A DNA stretch of 64,000 nucleotides from Desulfatibacillum alkenivorans DSM 16219 (GTDB lineage Bacteria; Desulfobacterota; Desulfobacteria; Desulfobacterales; Desulfatibacillaceae), in NCBI RefSeq assembly GCF_900142135.1, contig NZ_FQZU01000005.1, positions 1 to 64,000 on the forward strand. The letters are read 5' to 3'. The translations under genes and the position numbers were made by a program. Within the stretch, counting starts at the first letter, position 1. The number at the start of each line of letters is the position of its first letter. This document shows, piece by piece, positions 10,548 to 54,735 of the stretch. The notes beneath the pieces were generated by a model, which worked only from the letters and a program-made list of their open reading frames with translations, searched no databases and was not told the DNA's origin.

Positions 10548-10561
10548 GGCGCTCCTCCTGT

Positions 10562-11286: not shown

Positions 11287-11315
11287 TTGCGTTAATTTAA
11301 CAGGGAGTGAACGCT

Positions 11316-37151: not shown

Positions 37152-37387
37152 CTAAAATACAATTCGCATTTTTTAGCGGCCGGGTCAAATATTTTTTTTC
37201 AGAGGATTCAAATTCCCTTTGAAATTTTGGAGATATTGCAAAGGGCCAATATCCGCCAAATGAAAGGAATACCAGGTTCGGCAACCCCTCAGGGCAGGCG
37301 ATAGCGAGGCTTGCCTTTGCCTGCAAATAACTATTTTTTGGGCGCCATGGAGCATTCAACCACGAAATATCACATCAAAAAAAAATC

Positions 37388-37442
37388 TTGACACCCGTAC
37401 CCATTCAATATACTAACCATTTAGTTTAACCAAACGGTTAGT
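37388..37442 (+). promoter_or_regulatory. promoter and TetR operator of the pfa locus
   Basis: A TTGACA box (37388-37393) is followed by TATACT (37409-37414, a short 15-base spacer) or TACTAA (37411-37416, 17-base spacer). Over the -10 area lies a 31-bp inverted repeat with arms ACTAACC (37412-37418) and GGTTAGT (37436-37442), most inner positions also pairing. This form (TAACC...GGTTA) is typical of TetR-family operators, so the adjacent TetR protein probably represses its own operon. Confidence 0.75.
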
Positions 37443-37574
37443 TAAAAGTCGCCTTTACAACCAAATCCGCTTCAAAACGGCCCCTCGGCCTTTGCAAATC
37501 CTTTTCCGACATAATTGAACGCTGTTTTCACCCTGCATTTCAGTTTTACGATTTTTTTACATAGGAGTCTTTAT

Positions 37575-38228
37575 ATGCGAGGCAACACCTCTAAAGGACA
37601 GAGCGAAACGGTCCGACGAATAATTGAAGGCGCCACCCAGGCGTTCGCCCAAGGGGGATTCGCCGGCGCCAGCGTGGACGAAATCGCCAAAACCGCAGGC
37701 GTAAACAAGGCAAGCATTTACTACCACGTGGGGGACAAAGAGTCCCTGTACGGACTGGTGCTGCACGAAGTCATTCAGGACGCGCTGTCCCGGATTAACG
37801 AACGGCTCCAGCCGGACCAAAGCCCTGAAGAAAAGCTGAAATCCTACATTTTGGGCATTGCAGAAACCGTGCAGAAGCATCCTCCCTTGCCCGCCGTTAT
37901 GATGTCGGCGGTGTCGGCAAATGGGCGGGGATTGCCCGAAATGGTGGTGAGCGACCTGGTCCAGATTTACGGATTACTAGTCGCAATTCTTCATGAAGGG
38001 GAGGGAATGGGGATTTTTGAACGAGTGGATGGAATTGTCCTCTATCTGATGATTATGTGCTCCCTTTCAATCCACAAAAATGTAGAAGCCGCTTGGACGG
38101 AAAGCCAGGAATTTGCTGGCTTGTTTCAAAAGCTGGACGGATCCCTATTTAATTTGGTAGGGCAGAGTCTGGAGGGGGGAGTGGCGGCGGATGTGATTAA
38201 AATCGTACTCAAGGCCGTGCGAAAATAA
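37575..38228 (+). CDS. TetR-family regulator of the pfa lipid synthase locus
   Basis: 217 residues. The helix-turn-helix lies in about 25-60 (VDEIAKTAGVNKASIYYHVG), and the remaining helices form the effector and dimer domain. ATG 37575 has AGGAG upstream. A longer frame to 37515 has no ribosome site. It is 89 bases before PfaA with no terminator between, and a TetR-type operator covers its promoter. It is therefore likely to autoregulate and to control the lipid synthase, perhaps in response to an acyl-CoA or fatty acid. The ligand is inferred by analogy with fatty-acid-responsive TetR proteins. Confidence 0.9.
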   Translation: MRGNTSKGQSETVRRIIEGATQAFAQGGFAGASVDEIAKTAGVNKASIYYHVGDKESLYGLVLHEVIQDALSRINERLQPDQSPEEKLKSYILGIAETVQKHPPLPAVMMSAVSANGRGLPEMVVSDLVQIYGLLVAILHEGEGMGIFERVDGIVLYLMIMCSLSIHKNVEAAWTESQEFAGLFQKLDGSLFNLVGQSLEGGVAADVIKIVLKAVRK

Positions 38229-38317
38229 TCAAATTTTTTCGTGGCCGTAATCGGTTTTTAATAAGAGCATGTTGTAGCTAGTGATTTGACGTTTAGCCCG
38301 GCAGCGAGGTTGATATT

Positions 38318-41300
38318 ATGCCAGGGGAAAACCCCGAAACAAGAGAGATTCAGTCCCTTCTCCGGAAAAATCCCATTGCGGTCATTGGAATGGCCTCCAT
38401 CTTTCCCGGAGCCTCCAATCTGTCCCAGTATTGGGAGAACATACTCCATGAAATAGACTCCATAACCCCGGTCCCGGAAGATCGCTGGAAGATTTCGGAC
38501 TATTACGATCCCGACCCCGCTGTCCCGGACAAAACCTACAGCCGGGTAGGGGGCTTTCTTCCTGAAATCGATTTCGACCCCATGGAGTTCGGATTGCCGC
38601 CCAATATATTGGAGGTGACGGACGTTTCCCAGTTGCTGGCTTTGATTGTGGCCCGGGAGGTCATGGAGGACGCCGGGTATAACAAGGGCCAGGACCGGTC
38701 CCGGGTGGGCGTCACCCTGGGCGTGGGCGGAGGGCAAAAACTCTACCTGCCGCTCACCAGCAGGCTCCAGTATCCGGTCTGGAAAGAGGTTTTGACCAAA
38801 AGCGGGCTTTCCGAGGAGGAAGCGGCCGCCATCGCGGACAAAATCAAAAAGGCCTACATCCCCTGGGAGGAGAATTCCTTTCCCGGAATGCTGGGCAACG
38901 TCATCGCCGGCCGGGTGGCCAATCGTCTGGATCTTGGCGGGATGAACTGCGTGCTGGACGCCGCCTGCGGCGGGTCTTTGGCCGCCATGAAAATGGCCGT
39001 AAGCGAGTTGGCGGAAGGCCGCAGCGAAATGATGATCACAGGCGGGGTGGATACGGACAACTCGCCGTTCATGTACTTGTGCTTCGCCAAGACGCCCGCC
39101 TTGAGCAAAAAGGAATACTGCTCGCCTTTTGACGAGGATTCCGACGGCATCCTTATAGGCGAAGGCGTAGGCATGGTTTTGTTGAAGCGCCTGGAAGACG
39201 CCCGGCGGGACAACGATCGCATTTACGCCGTGATCAAAGGCGTGGGCGCCTCCAGCGACGGACGCTTTAAAAGCATCTACGCCCCCAGGCCCGAAGGGCA
39301 GGCCCGGGCCCTCAAACGCGCCTATCGGGACGCCGGATTCTCCCCCGCGGACATCGGTTTGGTGGAAGCGCACGCCACGGGAACGGTGGCCGGAGATTTG
39401 GCAGAGTTCACCGCCCTGAAAAGCGTGTTTGGAGAGGAGACCCAGGAAACAGGGGGCATCGCCATCGGCAGCGTCAAGTCACAGATCGGGCATACCAAAA
39501 CCGCCGCCGGGACCGCGGGCTTCATCAAGGCGGCCTTGGCCCTGCATCATAAAATTCTGCCTCCGACCATCAACGTCACAAAGCCCAATCCCAAGCTGGG
39601 CATGGAGGATTCTCCCTTTTACATCAACACGACGGCGCGGCCCTGGGCCTTGTCCAACGGAACGCCCCGGCGGGCCTCGGTGAGCGCCTTCGGCTTCGGA
39701 GGCTCCAACTTCCATTTTGTTTTGGAGGAAGCTCCCCAGGCGGAAGAAAAGGAATACCGCATTCACCGCATGCCCCGTTCGGTCGTCCTGCATGCTTCGT
39801 CCGGAAAAGAGTTGCAGGCCGCCTGCAAAAACGCATTGACGAACCTGGAAGCCCCGGAGGATTTAGACGCCCTGGCCGCAGCTTGCGCCGGAGAAATTCC
39901 GTCCAGCCATCCCCGGGTGGGATTTGCCGCCCGAACCGTGGAAGAGGCGCAGGAGCTTTTAAGGCAATCCCTTTCCGCTTTGGAGGAAAACGGAGCAGCC
40001 AAGGCCTGGACCTTGTCCCAGGGCGTATATTTCGGACCCAGGGCCTTGTCTCCCGACGCCAAGGTCGCCGCACTGTTTTCCGGCCAGGGCTCCCAATACG
40101 TGAACATGGGCCGGGAGGCGTCTTTGGGATATCCCCAGGCGCTGGCCGCCTTTGAAGGCGTGGACAAGGTTTTTCATGCAGCAGGCGAGGCGCCCCTGAC
40201 CCAGGCTGTTTTCCCCAAACCGTCCTTTGACCCGAAAGAGGATAAAAAGAAGATAGAGGTCCTAAACAATACCCGGTTCGCGCAACCCGCCATCGGAGCC
40301 TATTCCGCCGGCTTGTTCAACATAATGAGACGCGCCGGGTTTCAGCCGGATTTTAGCGCCGGACACAGCTTTGGCGAGATTACGGCCCTCTGGGCTTCGG
40401 GCGTTTTGGACGATCAGGTTTTCTACACCCTGGCCCACGCCCGGGGCAAGGCCATGGCCAAGCCGGATGCGGATGGCTTCGACCCGGGCGCCATGCTGGC
40501 CGTCATGGGGGATGTGGAAAAGATCCAGGAGCATGTGGACGATTTGGATGGAGTTCAAATCGCCAATTTTAACTCTCCCAAACAGGTGGTTTGCGCCGGT
40601 TCGACCCCGGCAATCAAGGAAGCCGCTCAATCCCTGAAAAAGGCCGGATTCCGCACCGTACAGTTAACGGTCTCCGCAGCCTTTCATACGCCCCTGGTCG
40701 GCCATGCCGCCGAGCCCTTCGCCAAGGCTATTGCTTCGGTCTCAGTCATGCCGCCTAAAATCCCGGTTTACTCAAACACAACCGCCGAGCCTTTTCCCCA
40801 GGATTCCCAAGCCATCGCCCGTATGATGGGCGAGCACATCCTCAACCCTGTGCGCTTTTCCAGGCAAATAGAAAACATGTACGCCGCCGGCGCCAGGGTG
40901 TTTGTGGAATTCGGGCCGAAAAACGTGCTCACCAGTTTGGTGGACGCCATTTTAAGGGACAGGCCCCACATGGCCATTGCTCTGGACAAGGGAGATCCCC
41001 AAGGCGGAGGCGATTTGGCCAAGGCCGCAGCCCAGCTTCGCGTGGCGGGCCTGCTTGCCCGGGACATTGACCCGTTCCAGCGCCCCATGCCTAAAAAGGC
41101 GAAAAAACAAAGCCCCCTGAACATCAAACTCAACGGAAGCAACTACGTGAGCGAAAAAACCAGAAAAGCCTATCAGGATTCCCTGTCGGACGGCTTTGCC
41201 ATTGAAAGAACCATTATGAAAAACGAGCAACCCAGTCAGCCTGCAGCGCAGGCGCCGGCCCCAACTCCCAAAGCGCCCGCGGAGCCTTCCGAGCCCAAAG

Positions 41301-44300
41301 CGGCTTCCCCTGCGCCTGCGGCGAATCCGGCTTCGGGCAACGGCATGGATCAGGTCATACAAAAACTTTTCGACCTGCAGGGGCAAACCCTTTCCGCTCA
41401 CGAACGCTATCTGGAAAATCATGCAGGATACACCCAGGCCTTCGCACGGCTCATGGAAAGTCAGGCGGGCCTGATGTCCAGCCAAGGCATGCAGGATATG
41501 CCCGAGAACATGCAGCGCAACATGGATTATTTCCATTCCCTCCATGGCGATACCTTGCGCATGCACCAGAAATACCTGGACGCCCAGACCAAAGAGACTG
41601 AACAGGCCCTAAGCCTGCTTAACGGTCGTATGAGCGGGGATAGCGCTTTAAACGCCCTGGATCTTCCCGTCCAACCGAAAATCCCGGCGCCCGCTCCAAC
41701 CCCTGCTGCGCCCAAGCCTGCTGCGCCGGTTATGGCGGAGACTCCGCCTCCCAGGCAAATCAAGAAGGCGGAGCCCATCGAAGATTATCGGATGTCCAAA
41801 CCCGAACTGGTAGCTCCGCCCAGGCGGGAAGCGCCGGGTCCACAAACGACCGCCGCCAACGGCCCGGACATAGAGCAGCTTTCCACCTTCATGCTTTCCG
41901 TGGTGAGCGAAAAGACGGGCTATCCCGCATCCATGCTGGAGCTGTCCATGGACATGGAGGCGGATCTCGGCATTGACTCCATCAAGCGGGTGGAGATCCT
42001 TGGCGCGATGATGGACGCCTACCCCAATTTACCGGAGATCAACCCGGACGAACTGGCCGACCTGCGCACCCTGCAGCAGGTGGTGGATCGCCTGGAGCAA
42101 AGCATAGGCCAGGGGCCGGCAGAGGCAGCAGCCCAACCCATGACTCCCGAGCCCCCTGCTTCTCCGGCGTCCGCCTCCGACTTGCCGGACATAGAGCAGC
42201 TTGCCACGTTTATGCTGTCCGTTGTCAGCGAAAAGACGGGCTATCCCGCGTCCATGCTGGAGCTGTCCATGGACATGGAAGCGGATCTCGGCATTGACTC
42301 CATCAAGCGGGTGGAGATCCTTGGCGCGATGATGGACGCCTATCCCAACTTGCCCGAAATCAACCCGGATGAACTGGCCGAACTCCGCACATTGCAGCAG
42401 GTGGTGGACCGGCTCGAAAAAAGCGCGGCAAGCCAGGCGCCGCCCGTGCAGTCGGCAGCGGTCGCTTCGGCGCCCGCTTCTTCGGCCCCAGCGGTAAAGC
42501 CCGCCGCTATAAGGGGTCTGCCCGGTTTGGAGGAGTTGGCAAATTTCATGCTGCAAACCGTGAGCGAAAAGACCGGCTATCCCGCATCCATGCTGGAGTT
42601 ATCCATGGACATGGAGGCGGATCTCGGCATCGACTCCATTAAAAGGGTGGAGATCCTGGGCGCCATGATGGACGCCTATCCCAATCTGCCCGAGATCAAC
42701 CCGGACGAATTGGCCGAACTCCGCACATTGCAGCAGGTTGTGGATCGTCTGGGCGCGGCCATGAAGCCTGCCGAATCCAAACCCGTTCAGGCGCAACTGG
42801 AATTCGGAACCGGCGGCGCATCCGTTCCTGTGGAAGCCGAAGCGCCCAAACCCGCCGCTCAGCCTGAAGTGGGAAACATTCCGGTGCAGCGAAGCGGCGT
42901 GAAGATCAAGCCCCTGCCTCCTGCCGATCATTTGCATTTTGACTTTCCCCCGAATCATGTGTGCGTTGTCGTCAGTGAAGGAACCGGCCTGACTGGGGAG
43001 TTGCTTAAACGCCTGAAGCATGAAGGTTTGCCGGCGGTGGTGATACTCCCCCCCTGGGCCTCCAAGACAGGCCTCGGCGAAGTCCCGAGCATTTTGCTTC
43101 AGGATACGCGGGACGTTTCCATCCGGTACGCCCTGGAAAGGGCTGCCAAGGATCACGGCTCCATCGGCGGATTTGTTCATTTATCGCCGGAAGCCGAGGA
43201 CCTGGCCCGGGAAAGCCTGGAACTGGCCTTTTCCTGCGCAAGGCACGCCAAAGGCTCTTTGACGGCCGAAGAAGACGGCGATTTTCGCCCGTTTTTCCTG
43301 GCCGTCGCCAGAATGGACGGCGCCCTGGGTATGGCCGGAGACGATTATTCTCCCATCCACGGCGGTCTTTTCGGGCTGGTCAAGACTTTGGACCTGGAAT
43401 GGCCCAGGGTTTTCTGCCGGGCTGTGGACATCGAACCCACCCTGGCGCCGGAAAGGGCGGCCAAACGCATTATATCAGAAATTTTCGACCCGGACGTCCG
43501 CATCAAGGAAACCGGCTATACCGCAGAAGGCCGCATGACTTTGGTCCCGGAACCGATTTCGGAAGCCTTGCCGGCCTTGGATTCCTCGCCCAGAGAGAAA
43601 AATCAGGTCTTCTTGGTGAGCGGAGGCGGCCGGGGCGTGACTGCTGAGTGCGTCATGAACCTGGCTAACGAGCTTTCCGCCGTGTTTGTGCTCACCGGCA
43701 GGTCGGCCATGATGGAAAAAGATCCGGATTGGGCCGAAGGCTGTCAGGATCTTATGCAACTCAAAGCCAAGGCCATGGAGCATTTAACCGCCCTGGGCGA
43801 GAAGCCCACCCCTAAAAAGGTGGAGGCCATGGCCCGGGAGGTTGCCTCTTCCCGGGAAATCCGCCAGACTCTTAAATCCATTCGCGGCGCAGGAAGCAAA
43901 GCCCGGTACGTGAGCGCCGACGTTACCCAGGCCTCGGACCTGAAAGAAAAACTGGCGCCGGTCGTCAAGGAGACAGGTCCCTTTACGGGAATCATTCACG
44001 GGGCGGGCGTGCTCAAGGATAAATTCATCGAAGACAAAACGCCCGAGGACTTTAACGCCGTGTTTTCCACCAAGGTGGACGGCCTGCTGGCCATGCTGGC
44101 TTGCGTGAATCCCTCGGAACTCAAATACCTGGCCTTGTTCTCTTCCGCCGCAGGATTTTACGGCAATCCCGGCCAGGCGGACTATGCGGCGGCCAATGAG
44201 GTCTTGAACAAGTTCGCTTACGCCTTTGCATCCATTCATCCCTCTTGCAAGGTGGTTACGATCAATTGGGGCCCCTGGGACGGCGGCATGGTTTCCCCGG

Positions 44301-45292
44301 AACTGAAAAGGATGTTCCAGCAGAAAAAGGTGGAGGTCATACCCCTGGAGGAAGGCGCCGGCATTTTCACCGCCTCTATGCTTGGCGGAAAATCCATCCA
44401 ATTGCTTGTGGGAAGCTCCATGCAAACGCCTCTGGAAATGACGGACGCCCCGCTTGTGAACCATAGGGTCTCGCGGAAGTTGTCCCTGGAATGCAATCCC
44501 TTTTTGCCGGATCACGTGATCGGCGATTGGGCGGTGCTGCCCACGGTCTGCGTTATGTCGTGGATGGCGGACGCATGCGAGCAATTTGTCCCCGGATACC
44601 GGTTTTTCCGCTGCCAGGACTATAAGCTGTTCAAGGGCATTGTTTTCGACAAGACCCTGGCCGGAGAATACATTCTGGACGCCAGGGAAATCGCAAAGGA
44701 CGCAGAAAAGGCAGACCTGGACGTGCAAATATACAGCGTCAAGGAAGGTAAGCGGATTCCCCATTACAAAGCCATGGTCAGGCTTATGGCCCGGGCGCCG
44801 GACGCGCCGGTTTATGACAATTTGGATCTGATCGAGACAACGCCCGAAGACGGCTCCGTTTTCTATAAGGATGGAACTCTGTTCCACGGCCCCAATTTTC
44901 GGATGATTCAAAAGGTCCTGAACTGCACCAAGGAAAAACTCACCCTAAAGGCCTGCGTTCCCATTATTCCGCCGGAAAGTCAGGGGCAGTTTCCGGTTGG
45001 CGCCATGGACCCCTTTACGGCGGACGTGCACTTTCAAAGCCAGTTGATCTGGGTGCGTAAGCACTGTGAAGCCGGCAGCCTGCCCGCCAGGGCCAATACG
45101 GTGGAACAGTACCGGCCCATCGCCCACGGGCAGGAATTTTTCGTCACCCTGGACGTGCTGGAAAGCTCCGATACTTCCATGAAAGCGGATATCTGCGCCC
45201 ATGATGACCAAGGGAACGTCTATTCCCGGGTTTTTGGCGCCGAGGTTACGGTCAGCAAAGGCCTGACCAAATTATTCGCCCTGGCCGTCTAA
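38318..45292 (+). CDS. pfaA: PUFA-synthase type polyketide synthase PfaA (KS-AT-ACP3-KR-DH)
   Basis: 2324 residues. Ketosynthase about 15-475 (active Cys217 in DAACGGS, then EAHATGT and the GHTKTAAG His). Malonyl/acyl transferase about 590-890 (Ser684 in GHSFGE). A Pro/Ala-rich linker precedes three acyl carrier domains with phosphopantetheine serines at 1221, 1328 and 1440, each in LGIDSIKR. Ketoreductase about 1500-2040 (cofactor motif SGGGRG near 1768, catalytic Tyr1956 in YAAAN). A C-terminal hot-dog dehydratase-like domain has His2066 (FLPDHV). This is the PfaA order, and the protein should build acyl chains on its carriers in the cytoplasm. Three carriers is fewer than in many marine EPA/DHA producers. 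The next gene overlaps its stop by one base. Confidence 0.94.
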   Translation: MPGENPETREIQSLLRKNPIAVIGMASIFPGASNLSQYWENILHEIDSITPVPEDRWKISDYYDPDPAVPDKTYSRVGGFLPEIDFDPMEFGLPPNILEVTDVSQLLALIVAREVMEDAGYNKGQDRSRVGVTLGVGGGQKLYLPLTSRLQYPVWKEVLTKSGLSEEEAAAIADKIKKAYIPWEENSFPGMLGNVIAGRVANRLDLGGMNCVLDAACGGSLAAMKMAVSELAEGRSEMMITGGVDTDNSPFMYLCFAKTPALSKKEYCSPFDEDSDGILIGEGVGMVLLKRLEDARRDNDRIYAVIKGVGASSDGRFKSIYAPRPEGQARALKRAYRDAGFSPADIGLVEAHATGTVAGDLAEFTALKSVFGEETQETGGIAIGSVKSQIGHTKTAAGTAGFIKAALALHHKILPPTINVTKPNPKLGMEDSPFYINTTARPWALSNGTPRRASVSAFGFGGSNFHFVLEEAPQAEEKEYRIHRMPRSVVLHASSGKELQAACKNALTNLEAPEDLDALAAACAGEIPSSHPRVGFAARTVEEAQELLRQSLSALEENGAAKAWTLSQGVYFGPRALSPDAKVAALFSGQGSQYVNMGREASLGYPQALAAFEGVDKVFHAAGEAPLTQAVFPKPSFDPKEDKKKIEVLNNTRFAQPAIGAYSAGLFNIMRRAGFQPDFSAGHSFGEITALWASGVLDDQVFYTLAHARGKAMAKPDADGFDPGAMLAVMGDVEKIQEHVDDLDGVQIANFNSPKQVVCAGSTPAIKEAAQSLKKAGFRTVQLTVSAAFHTPLVGHAAEPFAKAIASVSVMPPKIPVYSNTTAEPFPQDSQAIARMMGEHILNPVRFSRQIENMYAAGARVFVEFGPKNVLTSLVDAILRDRPHMAIALDKGDPQGGGDLAKAAAQLRVAGLLARDIDPFQRPMPKKAKKQSPLNIKLNGSNYVSEKTRKAYQDSLSDGFAIERTIMKNEQPSQPAAQAPAPTPKAPAEPSEPKAASPAPAANPASGNGMDQVIQKLFDLQGQTLSAHERYLENHAGYTQAFARLMESQAGLMSSQGMQDMPENMQRNMDYFHSLHGDTLRMHQKYLDAQTKETEQALSLLNGRMSGDSALNALDLPVQPKIPAPAPTPAAPKPAAPVMAETPPPRQIKKAEPIEDYRMSKPELVAPPRREAPGPQTTAANGPDIEQLSTFMLSVVSEKTGYPASMLELSMDMEADLGIDSIKRVEILGAMMDAYPNLPEINPDELADLRTLQQVVDRLEQSIGQGPAEAAAQPMTPEPPASPASASDLPDIEQLATFMLSVVSEKTGYPASMLELSMDMEADLGIDSIKRVEILGAMMDAYPNLPEINPDELAELRTLQQVVDRLEKSAASQAPPVQSAAVASAPASSAPAVKPAAIRGLPGLEELANFMLQTVSEKTGYPASMLELSMDMEADLGIDSIKRVEILGAMMDAYPNLPEINPDELAELRTLQQVVDRLGAAMKPAESKPVQAQLEFGTGGASVPVEAEAPKPAAQPEVGNIPVQRSGVKIKPLPPADHLHFDFPPNHVCVVVSEGTGLTGELLKRLKHEGLPAVVILPPWASKTGLGEVPSILLQDTRDVSIRYALERAAKDHGSIGGFVHLSPEAEDLARESLELAFSCARHAKGSLTAEEDGDFRPFFLAVARMDGALGMAGDDYSPIHGGLFGLVKTLDLEWPRVFCRAVDIEPTLAPERAAKRIISEIFDPDVRIKETGYTAEGRMTLVPEPISEALPALDSSPREKNQVFLVSGGGRGVTAECVMNLANELSAVFVLTGRSAMMEKDPDWAEGCQDLMQLKAKAMEHLTALGEKPTPKKVEAMAREVASSREIRQTLKSIRGAGSKARYVSADVTQASDLKEKLAPVVKETGPFTGIIHGAGVLKDKFIEDKTPEDFNAVFSTKVDGLLAMLACVNPSELKYLALFSSAAGFYGNPGQADYAAANEVLNKFAYAFASIHPSCKVVTINWGPWDGGMVSPELKRMFQQKKVEVIPLEEGAGIFTASMLGGKSIQLLVGSSMQTPLEMTDAPLVNHRVSRKLSLECNPFLPDHVIGDWAVLPTVCVMSWMADACEQFVPGYRFFRCQDYKLFKGIVFDKTLAGEYILDAREIAKDAEKADLDVQIYSVKEGKRIPHYKAMVRLMARAPDAPVYDNLDLIETTPEDGSVFYKDGTLFHGPNFRMIQKVLNCTKEKLTLKACVPIIPPESQGQFPVGAMDPFTADVHFQSQLIWVRKHCEAGSLPARANTVEQYRPIAHGQEFFVTLDVLESSDTSMKADICAHDDQGNVYSRVFGAEVTVSKGLTKLFALAV
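41880..42750 (+). repeat. three tandem acyl-carrier repeats inside pfaA
   Basis: Units of about 75 codons at roughly 41880-42100, 42191-42421 and 42524-42750, separated by Pro/Ala-rich linkers of 30-40 codons. The protein cores are almost identical (one Asp/Glu change between units 1 and 2). Long stretches are also identical at DNA level, as expected for recent duplication or gene conversion. Confidence 0.93.
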
Positions 45293-48200
45293 TGGAAAAA
45301 TCCATGAAAAAAATCGCCATTGTAGGCATGTCATGCCTGTTCCCCGGGGCCTCGACCCCCGGGGAATATTGGGACAACCTCATCACTCTAAAAGACTGCC
45401 GCACCCTTGCAACCGAAAAACGCATGGGCGTGGATCCCATGGATTACTATTCCCCGGAAAAAGGGACGGCGGACCGCTTTTATTGCGCCAGGGGCGGATA
45501 CATAAAGGATTTTTCGCCCGACTTGCATGCGCTTGAGATCCCGGGCGTCGATCTCAAAACCCTGGACCCTCTGCACCAGTGGTCCTTGTACGTGACCATG
45601 GAAGCTTTGCAAGACGCAGGCTGCTTTCCCGGCAGCGTCCCCGGCCGGACCGGCTTGATTTTGGGGAACCTGTCTTTTCCCACCCAGGCTTCCAACGCCT
45701 TGTTCATCCCCATGATGGAGCGGGCCGTGGAATCCGCCCTGAAAAAAGCGGGCGCAGGCGAGAATTTTTCTTTCTCCCCATGGCCGGGAAAAAATGATCC
45801 GGCCTGGGAAAACGGGGCCATATCCGGCTGGCCCGCTTATTTGACCGCCAAGGCGCTCAACCTGAACGGCCCGCGTCTGGCATTGGACGCCGCCTGCTCG
45901 TCCTCCCTGTACAGCGTGAGGCTGGCTTGCGACTATCTGAACTCCGGCCGGGCCGACATGATGCTGGCCGGCGCGGTGAGCGCGGCGGATCCGTTTTTTG
46001 TGAACATGGGTTTTTCCATTTTTCAGGCGTACCCCCACAACAAGGAAAGCCTGCCTTTGGACAAAAAATCCGGCGGCCTGACGGCGGGAGAGGGCGCCGG
46101 GATGTTCGTGCTCAAGCGCCTGAACGACGCGATCAAGGACGGAGACCGCATACACGGCGTGATTTGCGGAGCAGGGCTTTCCAACGACGGCAGGGGGGCC
46201 TCGGTCCTGAGCCCCAACCCGAAAGGCCAGGCCATGGCCTTTGAACGGGCATATAATGACGCAGGCGTCAGTCCCTCGCAAATAGGCTTTGTGGAATGCC
46301 ATGCCACGGGCACGCCCCTGGGCGACGGCATCGAGTTGGACTCCATGGAGGCCTTTTTCAGCCAATATAAAGCCAAACCTTATATTGGCTCAGTCAAAGC
46401 GGGTCTGGGCCATTTGCTCACCGCCGCAGGCATGGCCGGGATGATCAAGGTTATTTTGTCTCTGCAAAACGGGTCCATTCCCGGAACCGTAGGCCTGGAA
46501 GCCCCGGCGGATTCCAAGAACAAGTATTTTTCCGGGAAGGTTCCCAACTCTACCACTCCTTGGCCGGAGCCTGAGAGTAAAAAGCTGGGCGCCGTGAGCG
46601 CCTTTGGATTCGGCGGGGCCAACGCCCACATGATTTTCGAGCTTGCGCCGGAAAAAATTGATCTGATGAAAGATGATGCCAGCGCGGAATCCACCTTCCC
46701 GGAACTGGCGATAGTGGGCATGGACGCCCACTTTGGCGCCTGTTCCAGCCTGGACGACTTTTTGCGGGCCAATTACGAGGGCGAGCAGCAGTTCATCCCC
46801 TTGCCGCCCAATCGCTGGAAAGGCCTGGAGAATAATTCCGATCTTTTAAGGCAATACGGATTTGAGGACGGCAAAGCGCCTAAAGGGGCCTACATCCGGG
46901 ATTTTGACCTGGATTTTTTACGATTCAAAATCCCGCCCAACCCGGACGACCAGTTAATCCCCCAACAAATGCTGGCCATGAAAGTTGCAGACAAAGCCAT
47001 CCAACGGGCCGGGCTTAAGCAGGGCCAAAACACGGCCGTCCTGGTAGCCATGGGAACCGAACTGGAACTGCATCGCTACCGGGGGCGAGTAAACCAGGAC
47101 ACGCGACTGCCCCGGGCCTTTGGAAGAGATGCCTCGACCCAAGACGGCGTGTTGACGAATCTTTGTAAGAACGCGGTATGCAACGCCGCCAAGGTCAACC
47201 AGTACACCAGCTTCATCGGCAACATCATGGCCGCCCGCATCGCCTCGTTGTGGGATTTTAACGGCCCGGCCTTCACGATTTCCAGCGAGGAGAATTCCGT
47301 GTTTAAGGCCGTGGAAATCGCGGCCATGTTTTTGGAGAAAGGCGAGGTGGACGCCGTGGTCGTTGGCGCCGTGGACCTTTCGGGAAGCGCTGAAAACGTC
47401 CTATGGAGAAATTTAAGGCATCCGGCTCAAAAAGGCCGGGCGACCCTTTCATTCGACAAAGGAAACACCGGCTGGCTGGTAGGGGAGGGCGCGGGCGCCA
47501 TTGTTCTAAAAAAAACCGATGACGCCCGGAAAAACGGCGACCCGATCCACTGCGTAATCCGCTCCCTGGCTTTGGAGCAGGGGACGAACTCCCAGGCCGT
47601 GGAAGCCGCCGCCAAAAGAGCGGTCCGGGAAGCGGGAATTTTCTTTGAAGACATTGGATGTTTGGAAGCCTGCGCCAGCGGCATGCCGGAATATGACGAA
47701 GCGGAGACGGCGGGCCTGCTCGCGGCTTACGGCGGCGGAGAAACGCCTTCCTGCGCTTTGGGCGCCGCCAAGGCTTTGTTCGGCCATTCCTTCGCCGCCT
47801 CCCAAATGGCGTCCATCATCCGGGCCGCTTTATGCGCGGAGCACGGTTTTTTACCCCGGACTCCGGGATGGTCCATGCCAAAAAATCCCGAATCCTGGGA
47901 AAAGGGCCGGTTTTTCATCCCGGAAAGATCCCAGCCTTGGTTCGCAAAACCGGAAAAAAAGCAACGGATAGCCGCTGTCAGCGGCCTGGGCATGGACGGG
48001 TGCGCAGGACACATGATTCTGGCCGGAGAGGGTCAAAAGAAATCATCCGATTTTTGGAATTTGGGCGGCCCCTTTATCCTTCCGGTTTCCGGGGACGATC
48101 GGCGCTCTTTGGAAAGCCGGTTGGACGAGTTAATGCAGGACCTGGAATCCGGGAAGAGCCCGGCCGCATGCTCCCGCAAGTATTTTGACAGGCTGAAACC

Positions 48201-51200
48201 CGGCAAATACTCCCTGGCCCTGATCGGCTCCGATATCAGGGAATTGCAAAACGAAATTGACGCCGCAAGGCAAGGCATGGCCAAGGCCTTTCAGACCGGC
48301 AAGGACTGGTTTTCCGTCCGGGGCAGCGCATTCTCCCCCAATCCCATGGGCGGCAAAGGCAAGGTCGCCTTTGTGTATCCCGGCGGTTTCAGTTCCTATC
48401 CTCAAATGGGCCGGGATTTTTTTCAGCTTTTTCCGGCCTGCGCCAAGACCTGCATGGCGCCGGGGAACGACCTGGGCGACCTCTGGCGGGATAATCTTTT
48501 GTATCCCCGGGGCATGACTTTCACCCCGCCGGGCAAGCAGATTTGGGCTTTGGAAAAAAGCGCCATCGCCATGTTTGAAAGCGGAATCCTGTTCGCCATC
48601 GCCCGCACCGACGCCGTGCGCAAATGCCTGGGCGTTACGCCGCATATGGCTTTCGGATACAGCATGGGCGAGATTTCCATGTTGTACAGCCTGGACGTGT
48701 GGGGAAGAACCGACGCCATGAGCCGCCAGCTTAGGAAGTCGGCCGTCTTCCAAACGCGCCTGGCCGGTCCTATGGATACAGTGCGCAAAGCCTGGGGCAT
48801 GCCTCCGCAAAAGGAGGGCGAGGAGAAAATCTGGCATTGTTTTGCTTTGAAAACCAACCCCAAAACCTTGCGCAAGGTTTTGGCCTCGGAGAAAACCGGC
48901 GGCCGCAAACAGAGAGTCTTCCACACCTTTACCAACACCCCCGGCGAGGTGGTGATCGCCGGAGAGGAAGCCGCCTGCATACGGGTCATCCAAAACGCAG
49001 GCTGTGAATATTTTGAAGTCCCCATGGGCGACGCCATCCATTGCGACATTGTGCGTGCGGACTATAACGAAATGGTTTCCCTTCACAGCCTGAAAACCGC
49101 CCCGGTCAGGGACGTGGAATTCCTGACCACCGTGGGATGCGGCCCTCTTGAGTTGGACCAGGACGCCATTGCCCGCAATATTGCCGAGATGTACTGCTCT
49201 CAGGTGGATTTCGCCTCCCTGGTCAACAAGGCCTATGACCAGGGCGCGCGAGTGTTCATCGAACTGGGGCCAAGGGAGAATTGCACTCAATACATTGCAG
49301 AAACCCTGGGCGAACGCGAGCACCTGGCCGTGGCCACGGATCGGAAAGGCGCCGGATGCCGGACCTCCATTCTTCGGGCCTTAGCCCGTTTATTCTCCCA
49401 CCGGATTCCCATGGATCTGGGATGCGTCATTCCCAGGCCGGAAAAGCCGCCAGACGGCCCAAAGTTGCTTAAGACCGTTACTTTGGGCGGGGAGAGCATC
49501 GAAGATGCCATCATTTCTGGAGCCAAAAAGATATTGAATCCAGTAAAAGAGCCAACGCCCGAGGTTAAGCCTGAAAAGCCGGTTATTCCCAAGGTGGAAA
49601 AAATTGCATACGCTGAGCCCGTCCGGGAGATCAGGCCGGAAGCCGCTCCCGCGCCGGAGCCTCCGGCGACTCATACCGTCGCCGCGCCCTCCCATCCTTT
49701 GATGATGCAGGCGTATAGGGAAAACCAGACGCTCGTCACGGAAGGGCATAAGTCCTTTTTACGCAACAGGGCCAGGGCGTTAAGGCGGATGGAGCAGCTT
49801 ATCGCCATGCAGGCCGGGCTCATGGAAAAGGAAGTGAATTATGAGACGTTGGCGGAGCCATTGCCGGAATCAGCTCCCGCTCCAAAAATTCCTGCAATTC
49901 CTGTCCCGCTTCCGGCGGCTCCGGCTGCTTCCGTCAAACCAGCCATCTGGGATCGGCAAGACCTGGAAACTTTTGCTAAAGGGGATATCGCTGCGGTTTT
50001 CGGGCCGGAATACGCCATTATCGATTCCTACAAACGCCGGGTGCGGCTGCCCATGGACCCGTATTTGCTGGTCTCCCGCGTCACCAAGCTGCAAGGAAAC
50101 CGGGGCGAGTTCAAGCCGAGCGCCATGACCACGGAGTTTGACATTGAAAAGGGCGCCTGGTTTTTAATCGACGGGCAGATTCCCTGGGCGGTTTCCGTGG
50201 AGTCCGGCCAGTGCGACCTCTTGCTCATCAGCTACCTGGGGATTGACTTTGAATGCAAAGGCGAGCGGGTTTACCGCCTTTTGGACTGCACCCTCACCTT
50301 CATGGAAGACCTGGCCAAGGAAGGGGAAACCCTCCGGTACGACATCTCCATCAATTCCTTCGCCCGGAACGGCGGCAACCTGCTTTTCTTTTTCAGCTAC
50401 GAGTGCTTTGTGGACGACCGCCTGGTCCTGACCATGGACGGCGGCTGCGCCGGTTTTTTTTCCGACGAGGAGCTGGCTGCGGGCAAGGGGATCATCCGCA
50501 CCCAGGCCGAACAGGAAGAAAGAAGCAATATTATCCCTTCCAGGTTTAACCCCTTGCTTGATTGCGGCCGCCGCTCCTTTTCCAAGGAGGACTTGCTGCA
50601 TATCATCGAAGGCCGTCCTGCCGCGTGCTTCGGTCCGGATTACGACCAGCAGGGCGCCAATCCGTCCCTGAAGTTCGCGGCCCAGCAAATGCTCATGGTG
50701 GACCGCGTGGAATCCGTGGATCCCCAAGGCGGCCCCTGGGGCCTGGGCAAGGTCATCGCCCATAAGGACTTGCGGCCGGAGCATTGGTACTTTCCGTGCC
50801 ATTTTAAGGACGACGAGGTCATGGCCGGGTCTCTCATGGCCGAGGGCTGCGTGCAGTTGCTGCAGTTTTTCACCCTGTTCCTGGGCCTGCAGACCAAAAC
50901 CCGGGACGCCCGGTTTCAGCCCATCATCGGCCTGCCTCAAAAGGTGCGATGCCGGGGGCAGGTGACGCCCGTGGACGCTTTGCTCACCTACCGCATGGAG
51001 GTTAAGGAGATTGGCCTGACGCCCGAGCCTTACGCCGTGGCGGACGTGGACATTCTTTTGGGCGACAAGGTGGTGGTGGACTTCAAGGATTTGGGCGTCC
51101 GCCTGTCCGAAAAAGATCCCACGGCTGTGATTGAAGAAAAGCAGGAAACCCCGGCGCCAAAACCTTTGTTTGATAGCAACGACCTTCAGGAATTCGCCGT

Positions 51201-52305
51201 CGGCGACATAGCCAAATGCTTTGGGCCGGCCTTTGACATCTATCAAGATCGCCAGCCGCCCCGGACGCCCAACGGCGACTTGCAGTTGATTTCCCGGGTT
51301 CTGGAGGTGGAAGGAACGCCGGGGGACTTCCGCAATCCGGCCAGCGTGATTTCCGAGTACGACGTTCCCCGGGACGCCTGGTTTTGCGCGCAGAACAATT
51401 GGCCCGCCATCATGCCGTACTCCATGTTCATGGAGATCGCCCTGCAGCCCTGCGGGTTTATTTCCACCTACATGCAGACGACCTTGCTCATCCCGGAAAA
51501 GGATCTTTTTTTCCGCAACCTGGACGGGGAAGGAACGCTCAGCAGCCTGCCGGACCTCCGGGGCCGGACCATCACGAATCGATCCCGGTTGACAACCACG
51601 GCCAAGGCGGGCGGCTCCATCATTCAGAAGTTCGAGTTTGAACTTCTTACGGAAGGGGAGTTGTTCTATCAGGGAACCGCAGCCTTCGGCTACTTTACCA
51701 AAGAAGCCCTGGCCGACCAGATCGGGCTGGACGGCGGCGTGAACAACCATCCCCTGCACGCCCGGGAATGGCTGACGGACGACGCCGTAACCATTAAAGT
51801 TGATTTACAAAACGGTGCTCCGGCCGATTACGCCGTTTCCCCACTCAAGCCGCACCACGGCCTGTCGGGAAAACAATTGCAGTTTTTGGACAGAGTCCTT
51901 ATGGTGGAGCACTCGGGCCGATTCGGCAAGGGGTATATCTACGCGGACAAACAGGTGAATCCCGCGGATTGGTTTTACCCTTGCCACTTTCATAACGATC
52001 CGGTTATGCCGGGATCGTTGGGCGTGGAAGCCATGCTGCAGGCTTTGCAGGTTTTCGCCATTCAGCAAGGCCTGGGCCGGGATTTCGCGTGTCCGTATTT
52101 CACCCAGATGACGGACGCCATCGTCTGGAAGTATCGCGGCCAGATTATTCCGTCCAATGAGCGCATGACCCTGGATCTGCACGTGAAGAGCGTGGAGCAA
52201 GGGCGGGACGGCATTGTGATCAAGGCGGACGGCAATTTGTGGAAGGATAACATTCGGATTTACGAAGTCTCGGACGCGGGTTTCTGCATTCGGGACGCAG
52301 GATAA
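45292..52305 (+). CDS. pfaC: PfaC-like synthase with built-in acyltransferase (KS-CLF-AT-DH-DH)
   Basis: 2337 residues. Active ketosynthase about 5-460 (Cys202 in DAACSSS, HATGT). The second ketosynthase-like domain, about 475-900, is a chain-length factor: the Cys position is Glu667 (SSEENS) and the HGTGT motif is lost (ACASG). Acyltransferase about 1010-1370 (Ser1124 in GYSMGE, His1250). A Pro-rich linker follows, then two FabA-like dehydratase units with His1837 (FPCHFKDDEVMAG) and His2232 (YPCHFHNDPVMPG). In Shewanella-type loci the AT is a separate PfaB. In thraustochytrids KS-CLF-AT is fused to ER instead. Here PfaB-like AT and PfaC functions are joined. Start overlaps the PfaA stop (TAATG). 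Confidence 0.92.
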   Translation: MEKSMKKIAIVGMSCLFPGASTPGEYWDNLITLKDCRTLATEKRMGVDPMDYYSPEKGTADRFYCARGGYIKDFSPDLHALEIPGVDLKTLDPLHQWSLYVTMEALQDAGCFPGSVPGRTGLILGNLSFPTQASNALFIPMMERAVESALKKAGAGENFSFSPWPGKNDPAWENGAISGWPAYLTAKALNLNGPRLALDAACSSSLYSVRLACDYLNSGRADMMLAGAVSAADPFFVNMGFSIFQAYPHNKESLPLDKKSGGLTAGEGAGMFVLKRLNDAIKDGDRIHGVICGAGLSNDGRGASVLSPNPKGQAMAFERAYNDAGVSPSQIGFVECHATGTPLGDGIELDSMEAFFSQYKAKPYIGSVKAGLGHLLTAAGMAGMIKVILSLQNGSIPGTVGLEAPADSKNKYFSGKVPNSTTPWPEPESKKLGAVSAFGFGGANAHMIFELAPEKIDLMKDDASAESTFPELAIVGMDAHFGACSSLDDFLRANYEGEQQFIPLPPNRWKGLENNSDLLRQYGFEDGKAPKGAYIRDFDLDFLRFKIPPNPDDQLIPQQMLAMKVADKAIQRAGLKQGQNTAVLVAMGTELELHRYRGRVNQDTRLPRAFGRDASTQDGVLTNLCKNAVCNAAKVNQYTSFIGNIMAARIASLWDFNGPAFTISSEENSVFKAVEIAAMFLEKGEVDAVVVGAVDLSGSAENVLWRNLRHPAQKGRATLSFDKGNTGWLVGEGAGAIVLKKTDDARKNGDPIHCVIRSLALEQGTNSQAVEAAAKRAVREAGIFFEDIGCLEACASGMPEYDEAETAGLLAAYGGGETPSCALGAAKALFGHSFAASQMASIIRAALCAEHGFLPRTPGWSMPKNPESWEKGRFFIPERSQPWFAKPEKKQRIAAVSGLGMDGCAGHMILAGEGQKKSSDFWNLGGPFILPVSGDDRRSLESRLDELMQDLESGKSPAACSRKYFDRLKPGKYSLALIGSDIRELQNEIDAARQGMAKAFQTGKDWFSVRGSAFSPNPMGGKGKVAFVYPGGFSSYPQMGRDFFQLFPACAKTCMAPGNDLGDLWRDNLLYPRGMTFTPPGKQIWALEKSAIAMFESGILFAIARTDAVRKCLGVTPHMAFGYSMGEISMLYSLDVWGRTDAMSRQLRKSAVFQTRLAGPMDTVRKAWGMPPQKEGEEKIWHCFALKTNPKTLRKVLASEKTGGRKQRVFHTFTNTPGEVVIAGEEAACIRVIQNAGCEYFEVPMGDAIHCDIVRADYNEMVSLHSLKTAPVRDVEFLTTVGCGPLELDQDAIARNIAEMYCSQVDFASLVNKAYDQGARVFIELGPRENCTQYIAETLGEREHLAVATDRKGAGCRTSILRALARLFSHRIPMDLGCVIPRPEKPPDGPKLLKTVTLGGESIEDAIISGAKKILNPVKEPTPEVKPEKPVIPKVEKIAYAEPVREIRPEAAPAPEPPATHTVAAPSHPLMMQAYRENQTLVTEGHKSFLRNRARALRRMEQLIAMQAGLMEKEVNYETLAEPLPESAPAPKIPAIPVPLPAAPAASVKPAIWDRQDLETFAKGDIAAVFGPEYAIIDSYKRRVRLPMDPYLLVSRVTKLQGNRGEFKPSAMTTEFDIEKGAWFLIDGQIPWAVSVESGQCDLLLISYLGIDFECKGERVYRLLDCTLTFMEDLAKEGETLRYDISINSFARNGGNLLFFFSYECFVDDRLVLTMDGGCAGFFSDEELAAGKGIIRTQAEQEERSNIIPSRFNPLLDCGRRSFSKEDLLHIIEGRPAACFGPDYDQQGANPSLKFAAQQMLMVDRVESVDPQGGPWGLGKVIAHKDLRPEHWYFPCHFKDDEVMAGSLMAEGCVQLLQFFTLFLGLQTKTRDARFQPIIGLPQKVRCRGQVTPVDALLTYRMEVKEIGLTPEPYAVADVDILLGDKVVVDFKDLGVRLSEKDPTAVIEEKQETPAPKPLFDSNDLQEFAVGDIAKCFGPAFDIYQDRQPPRTPNGDLQLISRVLEVEGTPGDFRNPASVISEYDVPRDAWFCAQNNWPAIMPYSMFMEIALQPCGFISTYMQTTLLIPEKDLFFRNLDGEGTLSSLPDLRGRTITNRSRLTTTAKAGGSIIQKFEFELLTEGELFYQGTAAFGYFTKEALADQIGLDGGVNNHPLHAREWLTDDAVTIKVDLQNGAPADYAVSPLKPHHGLSGKQLQFLDRVLMVEHSGRFGKGYIYADKQVNPADWFYPCHFHNDPVMPGSLGVEAMLQALQVFAIQQGLGRDFACPYFTQMTDAIVWKYRGQIIPSNERMTLDLHVKSVEQGRDGIVIKADGNLWKDNIRIYEVSDAGFCIRDAG

Positions 52306-52326
52306 AAAAACAATTGGAGAGTTTTT

Positions 52327-53940
52327 ATGAACCAGGACGCCGTAGGATTTTCGCCCAAAGGACGGGTTTTTGATTTTGGCTGGAGCGCACCCGAAGATCA
52401 GGTTGTATACGACGAGGCGGGAGTCAAAGCGCTGCTTGAGGATTTATCCCAAAACCTGTTGGTGGTGGACAATAACGGCCGCATAGGCCTGACCGGTGCG
52501 GAGCCCATCCGCCAGACCGGCGCGGGTCCCAAAGTCATTGCCATGACTCCGGCTCTGCCCGTCCAAAGCCTGGGCAATCCTGAGTTCGGCAAGACCTACG
52601 GCACGGCCTATCCGTATTATGCAGGCGCCATGGCCAATGGAATCGCTTCCGTGGAAATGGTGACGGCTTTGGGCAAGGCGGGCTTTTTGGGCTCTTTCGG
52701 CGCCGGAGGGCTGGTTCCCTCTGCGGTGGAGGAGGCCATTCTGGCCATTCAAAAAAACCTTCCCAGCGGCCCGTATCTCTTTAATTTCATCCACAGCCCC
52801 CACGAGCCGGCCGTGGAGCAGGCCGTGGCCGAGCTTTACATCAAGCACGGCGTGAAAGCCGTGGAAGCGGCGGCGTTCATGGCCCTGACGCCCAGCATCG
52901 TGCAATACCGGATTGCGGGCTTAAGCCGGGACGCCCAAGGCAATATTGTCATCGGAAACCGGATTATCGCCAAAGTCTCCCGCAAGGAAGTCGCCAGCCG
53001 TTTTATGGAGCCTGCGCCGGAAAGGGTTTTGAAAAAGCTGATTTCCGGGGGAGTGATTACCGAGGATCAGGCGGACCTGGCCCGTCAGGTTCCCATGGCT
53101 GATGACATCACCGTGGAGGCGGACTCCGGCGGACATACGGACAACCGGGCTCTGGTGACCATCCTGCCGTCCATTTTGAGCCTGCGGGACGAAATTCAGG
53201 CCAAACGCAATTATCCGGTTGCAGTGCGCGTGGGGGCCGGAGGAGGGATGGGATCGCCTCAGGCGGTTTTGGCGGCTTTTATCATGGGCGCGGAATATAT
53301 CGTGACCGGCTCCGTGAACCAGGCGTGCGTGGAATCCGGGGCTTCGGATCATGTAAAAGGGCTTTTGGCCAAGGCTGATATGGCGGATACCGTGATGGCG
53401 CCTTCGGCTGATATGTTTGAGTTAGGAGTTAAGGTGCAGGTGTTAAAACGCGGTTCCCTTTTTGCAGTGAGGGCTGCGAAACTGCACGACATTTACAGCA
53501 GGTGCGAATCCATAGAGAGCATACCGTCTGATGAGCGGGAAAAGCTGGAAAATCAGATTTTTAAAAAAAATCTGGACGAAATATGGGCTGATACCATAGA
53601 CTTTTTTTCCCAGAGGGATCCCGGTTTGGTCGCCAAGGCCGGGGCGGATCCCAAAAAGAAGATGGCGCTGATATTTCGCTGGTATCTGGGCTTGTCCTCC
53701 CGTTGGGCTAATAAGGGGGAACCTGGACGGGAAATGGACTACCAGATATGGTGCGGTTCGTGCATAGGAGCATTTAACGCCTGGGTGAAGGGGACCGGCA
53801 TGGAAGCTCCGGAGAACCGTAAGGCGGCCCATGTCGCCCGGCATCTAATGAACGGCGCTGCATATCTGCACCGGGTCGATCAGCTTAAGCTGCAGGGGGT
53901 GCTTATTTCTCCCCAATTAGCCGCATACAAGCCTGATTGA
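52327..53940 (+). CDS. pfaD: PfaD-type enoyl reductase of the lipid synthase
   Basis: A 537-residue FMN TIM-barrel protein related to 2-nitropropane dioxygenase and FabK. It has glycine-rich substrate and FMN segments (GFLGSFGAGGLVPSAVEEAI, EADSGGHTDNRALVTILPSI, VGAGGGMGSPQAVLAAFIMGA) and the long PfaD-specific C-terminal part (YQIWCGSCIGAFNAWVKGTG). It reduces the enoyl double bonds that are not kept in the product. It lies 21 bases after PfaC with a GGAGAG site. Length and order are standard for pfa clusters. Confidence 0.94.
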   Translation: MNQDAVGFSPKGRVFDFGWSAPEDQVVYDEAGVKALLEDLSQNLLVVDNNGRIGLTGAEPIRQTGAGPKVIAMTPALPVQSLGNPEFGKTYGTAYPYYAGAMANGIASVEMVTALGKAGFLGSFGAGGLVPSAVEEAILAIQKNLPSGPYLFNFIHSPHEPAVEQAVAELYIKHGVKAVEAAAFMALTPSIVQYRIAGLSRDAQGNIVIGNRIIAKVSRKEVASRFMEPAPERVLKKLISGGVITEDQADLARQVPMADDITVEADSGGHTDNRALVTILPSILSLRDEIQAKRNYPVAVRVGAGGGMGSPQAVLAAFIMGAEYIVTGSVNQACVESGASDHVKGLLAKADMADTVMAPSADMFELGVKVQVLKRGSLFAVRAAKLHDIYSRCESIESIPSDEREKLENQIFKKNLDEIWADTIDFFSQRDPGLVAKAGADPKKKMALIFRWYLGLSSRWANKGEPGREMDYQIWCGSCIGAFNAWVKGTGMEAPENRKAAHVARHLMNGAAYLHRVDQLKLQGVLISPQLAAYKPD

Positions 53941-53970
53941 CGTTTTGTTTGTAGGAGGAGAAAAGTTTTT

Positions 53971-54735
53971 GTGGAAAACCTGCCCCAATTAAATTTGGAG
54001 CCCGGGCAGGTCCATGTATGGTTTACCTGTCCCGAAGACATACAGGATCCGGATCTCCTGGCTTCGTATCATTCTTTTCTCACGGAAGAAGAGAAAGAAA
54101 AACAAGCCCGCTATATCATGCCCTGGCACAGGCATACCAGCCTGGTGTCCAGAGCCTTGGTTCGTTGCGTGCTTTCCCGTTACGCCGCAGTAAAACCCCA
54201 TGAGTGGCGGTTTGACAAGAACAACTACGGCAAACCTGGGTTGGCGGAGGAATGCCTGCTTCTTCCTTTACAGTTCAACCTGGCCCATACTCATGGCATG
54301 GCCGCCTGCGCCGTCACCCTAAACGGGTCAGTGGGCGTGGATGTGGAACGATGGGACAGGCAGCGGGATTTTGATCGCCTTGCCGCCCGTTATTTTTCTT
54401 CGTATGAGGCAAATCTGCTGAAAGAAGTTCCGGAATACGCCAAACGCCGCCTTTTTTTCAATATCTGGACATTAAAAGAGTCGTACATCAAAGCCCGGGG
54501 CGTGGGCTTGTCCATGGGCCTGGACCTCTTTTCCTTTGAAGTCGCCGAAAACGGCCACCCCCGCATCGTCCTGGATCCTCTCCTGGAGGACAATCCCGAA
54601 GCCTGGGCGTTCCGGCTGCTCACTCCCACAGAGCATCATGTGGCGGCCTTGGCGGTCGAGCGGCAGCCGGATTTTTCATGCGAAGTGCAATCCCGGTATA
54701 CCATCCCTTTGATCCATGAAGAAATCATGGAGTGA
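53971..54735 (+). CDS. pfaE: Sfp-type 4'-phosphopantetheinyl transferase (PfaE)
   Basis: 254 residues. It contains the two signature motifs of Sfp-type transferases, VGVDVERW (near residue 120) and WTLKESYIKARG (near 168), whose Asp and Glu bind magnesium and CoA. It transfers the phosphopantetheine arm from CoA to the serines of the three carrier domains in PfaA, making the locus self-sufficient. GTG start with AGGAGG ten bases upstream, 30 bases after PfaD, last gene of the operon. A hairpin without T-run follows the stop. Confidence 0.94.
   Translation: MENLPQLNLEPGQVHVWFTCPEDIQDPDLLASYHSFLTEEEKEKQARYIMPWHRHTSLVSRALVRCVLSRYAAVKPHEWRFDKNNYGKPGLAEECLLLPLQFNLAHTHGMAACAVTLNGSVGVDVERWDRQRDFDRLAARYFSSYEANLLKEVPEYAKRRLFFNIWTLKESYIKARGVGLSMGLDLFSFEVAENGHPRIVLDPLLEDNPEAWAFRLLTPTEHHVAALAVERQPDFSCEVQSRYTIPLIHEEIME

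Follow-up and report, generated by a model that had tools for sequence, protein, structure and literature searches.

Why would an anaerobe keep an intact polyunsaturated fatty acid (PUFA) synthase when its named relatives show no unsaturated fatty acids in culture? The question is raised by a pfa locus at positions 38318-54735 of the DNA analysed here, the first 64,000 nucleotides of contig NZ_FQZU01000005.1 of Desulfatibacillum alkenivorans DSM 16219 (hereafter, the window). To judge from its gene content, the locus is probably a TetR-linked operon for an iterative, O2-independent polyunsaturated fatty acid (secondary lipid) synthase of Type C. An original prediction had described it as a compact two-megasynthase system with a PfaB-like acyltransferase (AT) fused inside PfaC.

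Genes, domains and the internal acyltransferase

The locus consisted of four plus-strand frames preceded by a regulator gene. Ketosynthase (KS), acyl carrier protein (ACP), ketoreductase (KR), dehydratase (DH), chain-length factor (CLF) and enoyl reductase (ER) domains were placed as follows:

37412..37442: inverted repeat 5' of the TetR gene, candidate operator (15-nt arms, 87% complementary, 1-nt spacer)
37575..38228, plus strand: TetR-family regulator, 89 bp 5' of pfaA (PF00440, 49.4 bits; start codon picked by eye)
38318..45292, plus strand: pfaA, 2324 residues, KS-AT-ACP-ACP-ACP-KR-DH (TIGR02813 and Pfam domains)
38369..39577, plus strand: PfaA KS, with both the Cys of DAACG and the His of EAHATGT
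40073..41107, plus strand: PfaA AT of malonyl type, motifs GHSFGE and AAFH
41885..42757, plus strand: three tandem ACPs, outer limits approximate
43610..44281, plus strand: PfaA KR (PF08659, 117.8 bits)
44459..45250, plus strand: PfaA DH of polyketide synthase (PKS) type (Pfam)
45292..52305, plus strand: pfaC (pfaBC), 2337 residues, KS-CLF-AT-DH-DH
45307..46497, plus strand: PfaC KS, with DAACSS Cys, ECHATGT His and GLGH His
46705..47991, plus strand: PfaC CLF, SSEEN at the active-site Cys position, without Cys; end approximate
48316..49425, plus strand: internal PfaB-like AT (PfaC residues 1009-1378), GYSMGE at 48655, DAIHCD at 49030, KGAG at 49345
49924..51126, plus strand: first FabA-like DH, CHF..D at 50797
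51229..52296, plus strand: second FabA-like DH, CHF..D at 51982
52327..53940, plus strand: pfaD, ER, 537 residues (TIGR02814, 660.2 bits; cut-off 449.25)
53971..54735, plus strand: 4'-phosphopantetheinyl transferase (PPTase, pfaE-like), 254 residues, GTG start (PF01648, 79.3 bits; cut-off 25)

Pfam and NCBIfam matches bore out the predicted domain order, KS-AT-3xACP-KR-DH, KS-CLF-AT-DH-DH, ER and PPTase in one run. The pfaC start overlapped the pfaA stop (TAATG), and only 21 bp separated pfaC from pfaD and 30 bp pfaD from the PPTase gene. PfaA matched TIGR02813 with 2407.7 bits (cut-off 1010.1). PfaC scored above the Pfam cut-offs for two pairs of ketoacyl-synthase domains and for two FabA-like ones; the frame cannot have arisen by chance, since it has 2337 open codons and relatives at 51-62% identity. 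The stretch preceding each FabA-like DH was taken, by eye, as its N-terminal hot-dog repeat. The malonyl-type meaning of the PfaA AT motifs follows PMC12895367. All three ACP serine sites (DSIK; residues 1220, 1327 and 1439) were kept, and the PPTase carried the motifs GVDVE and WTLKES.

Conservation of the dehydratase residues was followed through a survey of 100 loci (80 named, 20 from a phylum search), which is not a census because the named loci are the best-scoring 80 of at least 531 relatives. Ninety-four frames held both DHs and six loci had no such frame; once 23 frames had been excluded for truncation or for short matches to KS or CLF, 71 complete ones remained. The catalytic His was found in all 71 first and in 70 of the 71 second FabA-like DHs (one gap), and the window kept both, each with CHF..D and the acidic residue. 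The His of the PfaA DH was present in 64 of 65 aligned rows, the remaining row being a gap. At the gene level, the window contains the marks of a PUFA synthase, namely a PfaA with KS-malonyl AT (MAT)-tandem ACP-KR (TIGR02813), a PfaD (TIGR02814) and two FabA-like dehydratase/isomerases with intact sites.

The AT inside PfaC clearly reads as a PfaB-like acyltransferase. Acyltransferase similarity, on which the original prediction hinged, was evident: in a phmmer search against solved structures, the best match was PfaB of S. baltica (9ry8; E 1.8e-38), spanning residues 3-372 of 375, and the runner-up had E 5e-7. The region bears GYSMGE, that is, motif II (GxSxG) with the Tyr that is conserved in bacterial PfaB and described as important for palmitoyl binding and transfer (PMC12895367), as well as a catalytic-His motif. 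An AlphaFold2 model of CLF-AT had a mean predicted local distance difference test (pLDDT) score of 88, and its structure matches were KS-AT didomains of polyketide synthases. The root-mean-square deviation was ~22 over both domains, presumably because the domain orientations differ; 9ry8 was not among the 50 matches listed in either structure search. The model of PfaA KS-MAT was poor (mean pLDDT 61.7) and was not used.

In the mechanism inferred from these domains, the PPTase would arm the three ACPs, the PfaA AT would load malonyl units, and the PfaA KS together with the KS-CLF of PfaC would extend the chain. The KR, the dehydratases and PfaD would then reduce it selectively, with the FabA-like DHs dehydrating and isomerising in particular cycles to leave cis, methylene-interrupted double bonds. 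The AT inside PfaC may handle long acyl chains late and set or release the product, in the manner of gammaproteobacterial PfaB. Regulation may keep the operon off or low in ordinary laboratory culture. The TetR product bore a weak likeness to several TetR regulators, the top one being FadR of Bacillus (49.3 bits; cut-off 200). An Rfam scan of 36900-55300 gave no match at the gathering score, and scans for promoters and terminators across 36900-38330 and 54600-55300 found nothing clearly above shuffled controls.

The PfaA of the window also carried a helical-looking motif, ..TL..H..YL..Q.., at two sites 5' of the ACPs (~41399 and ~41564; residues 1028 and 1083), and a single copy lay in the PfaC linker between AT and DH (~49747; residue 1486). 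With a third-round hidden Markov model, 34 of 35 matches in the surveyed frames preceded ACPs; the remaining match, in an AT-DH linker, was the window's own copy. The motif is possibly a docking or dimer helix.

What the operon may make

The evidence on the product is in conflict: the enzyme set predicts a polyunsaturated chain, whereas the published lipids are without unsaturation. The lipid study PMC5552659 reports unsaturated fatty acids, cyclic fatty acids and alkyl ethers to be absent from D. alkenivorans, D. aliphaticivorans and T. commune; D. alkenivorans was grown there at 24-40 °C and D. aliphaticivorans at 20-40 °C. In the available text of a study of D. alkenivorans by ultra-high-performance liquid chromatography with high-resolution mass spectrometry (PMC11150832), neither "polyunsaturated" nor "monounsaturated" appears. 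The operon may be silent in cultures of this kind, its product may be something other than a membrane acyl chain, or the methods may have missed it. The claim that the locus would make polyunsaturated lipids is unproven, while the accompanying one, of a lipid synthase of predicted oxygen-independent type in the family of an anaerobe, held.

The genus-mate G297 carried the PfaC DHs, PfaD and PPTase in the window's order, at a contig end and with 71-78% identity. Between the two, dN/dS was ~0.10-0.15 in the PPTase, in PfaD and over 927 aligned residues at the PfaC end, a rough value because dS was near saturation (1.2-1.35). In a PfaC tree of 70 rows (KS, CLF and DHs as non-overlapping domains, the duplicate L039 dropped), the window fell in a set of six rows with support 98, together with L041, L043, L105 (SAR324-like), L010 and L059; its companions in the set include SAR324-like and Thermodesulfobacteriota rows.

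Besides the published lipids and the near-saturated dS, several points count against an operon for a polyunsaturated product. The six-row set was drawn beside 27 gammaproteobacterial rows (own support 100) with a join support of 67, and since this join with known producers is unsupported, the tree makes only a weak argument from Pfa kinship to a PUFA product. In G297, pfaA and the front of pfaC fall off the contig, so that conservation was seen for the rest. The internal AT scored 125.5 bits against TIGR02816 (pfaB_fam), under the cut-off of 144.3, and is for that reason filed as PfaB-like and not as PfaB; against Pfam Acyl_transf_1, it scored 28.8 bits (cut-off 32.7). Two motifs as defined for PfaB in PMC12895367 were matched in part: motif III, [NT]A[IM]H[ST], reads DAIHC with the core AIH kept and motif IV, NAKGx[DES], reads DRKGAG with the core KG kept, the flanks differing in both. 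The proposed TetR control is based on adjacency and one inverted repeat.

The product may instead not be a membrane PUFA but a long chain that is saturated, mono-unsaturated or hydroxylated, or one destined for another acceptor (compare heterocyst glycolipids, phenolic lipids and lipopeptide tails), which we regard as rather unlikely. Such a product would agree with the absence of unsaturated fatty acids reported for the two named Desulfatibacillum species, and related Pfa systems are described as yielding non-membrane lipids (PMC3098273, PMC13291983). However, the FabA-like dehydratase/isomerases are intact, with His and acidic positions as in the Shewanella and Photobacterium rows, and the 10 flanking proteins scanned (33428-60966) included no recognisable PKS or nonribosomal peptide synthetase partner, the rest of the window being unscanned for such partners.

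A route in which Pfa feeds polyunsaturated hydrocarbons of the C31:9 type via OleABCD, as in Geobacter bemidjiensis, where pfa is described with oleABCD (PMC4882568), is very unlikely. It draws on locus L119, 3' of pfaC in genome G287, whose genes score as oleA, B, C and D and a PPTase, and on one OleA-like protein in the window's genome (41% identical; NF006720, 451 bits). The gene for the latter (G000:C14:30566-31567; L148 8564-9574) nonetheless adjoins a glycosyltransferase-like gene, near a fumarase-like gene, and oleB, C and D were unrecognised among its five scanned neighbours. The top OleD-model score in the genome was 166 (cut-off 580), though the OleD of L119 itself reached only 450, and OleB and OleC were not searched genome-wide. 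No ole genes were recognised among the scanned proteins flanking pfa, where oleABCD would be expected on this route. Grouping of the window with the Geobacter type was rejected in the PfaC tree (approximately unbiased (AU) test, p 0.02).

A non-functional relic, acquired or in decay, is hardly a credible reading of the cluster. Its G+C content lies slightly above that of the window (57.9% vs 54.7%) and it has no known product, but its four frames are open with their catalytic residues in place, and G297 retains the order pfaC-pfaD-PPTase at the low dN/dS given above. An oxygen-independent PUFA synthase remains the reading that we consider probable.

The layout among catalogued Pfa systems

The layout of the window is already known: it was described in 2011 as Type C and is common across bacterial phyla. 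As reported by Shulse and Allen (PMC3098273), the Type C secondary lipid synthase, from D. alkenivorans AK-01, has a pfaBC fusion [KS-CLF-AT-DH2] with a 3' pfaD. The window showed the same order in pfaBC and carried pfaD (52327-53940) after pfaC; by published description, it shares fusion, pfaD position and bacterial family with AK-01, and no difference from that description was found. The family, Desulfatibacillaceae, has Desulfatibacillum as its one named genus (NCBI).

The contrast that the original prediction drew with the Shewanella and thraustochytrid layouts holds. Type A/B pfaABCDE clusters (Shewanella, Photobacterium, Moritella) share the enzyme set of the window, but their AT belongs to a separate PfaB gene with a pseudo-KS, whereas the window has no such gene and its AT sits within pfaC; the PfaB AT is nevertheless its closest solved relative. 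The joining of AT and DHs, put forward as new, was preceded by Type C, by Type D and by myxobacterial Pfa3 (PMC3098273, PMC6731297). Type D, from Psychroflexus torquis, has the same [KS-CLF-AT-DH2] in pfaBC and is described as producing arachidonic acid (AA) and eicosapentaenoic acid (EPA) (PMC3098273), but its pfaA is split into [KS-AT-ACP5] and [KR], where the window has a single PfaA with a DH. Myxobacterial Pfa3 is KS-CLF-AT-DH-DH with an added acylglycerolphosphate acyltransferase (AGPAT), the AT lying mid-protein, and Pfa2/Pfa3 of Aetherobacter and Minicystis have known products of docosapentaenoic/docosahexaenoic acid (DPA/DHA) and AA/docosatetraenoic acid types (PMC6731297, PMC4882568). 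It differs from the window by the AGPAT (with DH4 in Minicystis) and by an ER gene upstream, where the window's pfaD is downstream. No AGPAT domain, the mark of Type L, appeared among the Pfam matches of the window PfaC to E 1, and its second DH reaches the C terminus. An architecture identical to the window's with a known product is thus catalogued for the PfaBC protein (Type D, Pfa3), but not for the whole Type C cluster, for which the available text of PMC3098273 gives no product.

Type I of Geobacter likewise has KS-CLF-AT-DH-DH in its pfaBC, and in a strict anaerobe, but its cluster begins with pfaD (PMC4882568), whereas pfaD of the window is 3' of pfaC. Full-length relatives of this type were 32-35% identical to the window, and L119 has ole genes next to its cluster. 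A 2026 paper also describes fused pfaBC homologues, spread over several clades (PMC13291983).

In our survey, 45 of the 71 complete PfaC frames held the AT (KS-CLF-AT-DH-DH), counting the window (L009) and the duplicate pair L010/L039, and 26 did not. AT-bearing frames came from Chloroflexota, Cyanobacteriota, Bacteroidota, SAR324, Planctomycetota, Gemmatimonadota, Streptomyces and Thermodesulfobacteriota, with three gammaproteobacterial records (L045, L066, L108) and one unplaced proteobacterial metagenome-assembled genome (MAG; L043). Those lacking it came from Shewanella, Parashewanella, Vibrio, Photobacterium, Motilimonas, Colwellia and one Desulfobacterales MAG (L059). The two-megasynthase architecture is unlike that of the Shewanella and thraustochytrid loci, but its novelty can be dismissed, given the 2011 description, the 45 frames above and the pairing of an unsplit PfaA with PfaBC in five other loci than the window (L045, L110, L112, L113, L117).

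In the phylum search, 286 of 297 genomes matched at E 1e-20, among the matches listed mostly via the KS region; PfaD was above the cut-off in 25 of 30 genomes, the window's own counted. The Desulfobacterales MAG Bpl_7 (L059, 1-14368), in which PfaB is separate and that piece codes for eight ACPs, had the layout of gammaproteobacteria, possibly by horizontal transfer. In L151 (2569-4974) and L153 (10594-12903), from genomes G308 and G312 of the window's order, a PfaD-type ER was fused behind a malonyl-type acyltransferase; trans-AT polyketide systems have a similar AT-ER fusion. The neighbours of the window's own cluster had no evident tie to it. On the 5' side lies a gene for a TRAP-type solute-binding protein (35782-36948, minus strand). 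Frames on the 3' side begin at 55123, and 55123-57099 holds a PqqD-like frame as well as two frames without family match, the first of 233 residues, where a signal peptide seemed possible by eye, and the second of 293.

Origin of the stand-alone PfaB

Sequence comparison inclines us, by a little, to the view that KS-CLF-AT-DH-DH is the older state and that PfaB, as it stands alone in Shewanella, Vibrio and Colwellia, would be a copied and decayed CLF-AT piece, after which the gammaproteobacterial PfaC would have lost its own AT. This runs against a recent published proposal, which derives PfaB from the KS-MAT of PfaA (PMC12895367, section 3.4). A literature search of titles and abstract starts found no paper proposing a CLF-AT origin.

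The pseudo-KS of PfaB (KS') and the CLF formed one clade with support 100 in three trees, sampling 4 KS' and 22 CLF, 4 and 15 (mixture model), and 8 and 20 sequences. Placement of KS' with the PfaA KS was rejected in all three (AU p 1.8e-4, 3.7e-4 and 6.4e-5), and placement with the PfaC KS in the tree with 4 KS' and 22 CLF (p 8.4e-4). For the eight PfaB with a KS' of at least 40 bits (L066, L103, L108, L165, L167, L168, L170, L171), the CLF model gave 45-150 bits vs 3-79 for both KS models; the trees outweigh these scores because the PfaA-KS model was built on one sequence. In a BLAST search with the KS' of Colwellia PfaB, two genomes gave E 2e-31 and 3e-23 for their long PfaC frames and ~1e-5 for the other long frames, presumably PfaA. 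The ATs of PfaB and PfaC also stood together, apart from the PfaA ATs (support 100; four of 24 MAT rows used). Given the KS'-CLF clade, the BLAST result and the AT grouping, PfaB looks like a copied CLF-AT piece. A first KS' run, which had rejected KS' with CLF (AU p 1.5e-4), contained a mislabelled CLF (L011) and the 30%-filled L055 in its KS set and was superseded.

Three loci carried a stand-alone PfaB and an AT-fused PfaC side by side. Their sources were Moraxellaceae NORP69, Gammaproteobacteria 45_16_T64 and G077, a MAG of the window's phylum; L066 and L108 are the gammaproteobacterial records.

L066, 4526-6946 and 6962-14362: PfaB and fused PfaC
L108, 1358-3859 and 3942-10964: PfaB and fused PfaC
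L165 (G077), all on the minus strand: PfaA 10893-18650, PfaB 8428-11475, PfaC 1135-8424, PfaD 3-1235

A first tree placed the stand-alone PfaB ATs inside the fused ATs, but this nesting was unsupported, and keeping all 60 fused ATs together had the higher likelihood (AU p 0.596). The test did not reject a group made up of the PfaB ATs and the fused ATs from L066 and L108 (p 0.374), but it did reject one with the fused AT of L012 (G077; p 0.022). We must also note the limits on this origin of PfaB: the AT tree alone does not fix the direction of descent between the PfaB and PfaC ATs, a CLF clade that excludes KS' could not be rejected (p 0.204), which bears on the branching point of KS', and the KS' branches are long. 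The Shewanella/Vibrio-type KS' that were scored, at most ~0 bits against the CLF model (18 for that of L059), stand outside the KS' trees.

The choice of PUFA lies with the PfaB subunit. If PfaB did arise from the CLF-AT of PfaC, the CLF and the terminal AT would have evolved as one module, and such an origin could guide the engineering of EPA versus DHA output.

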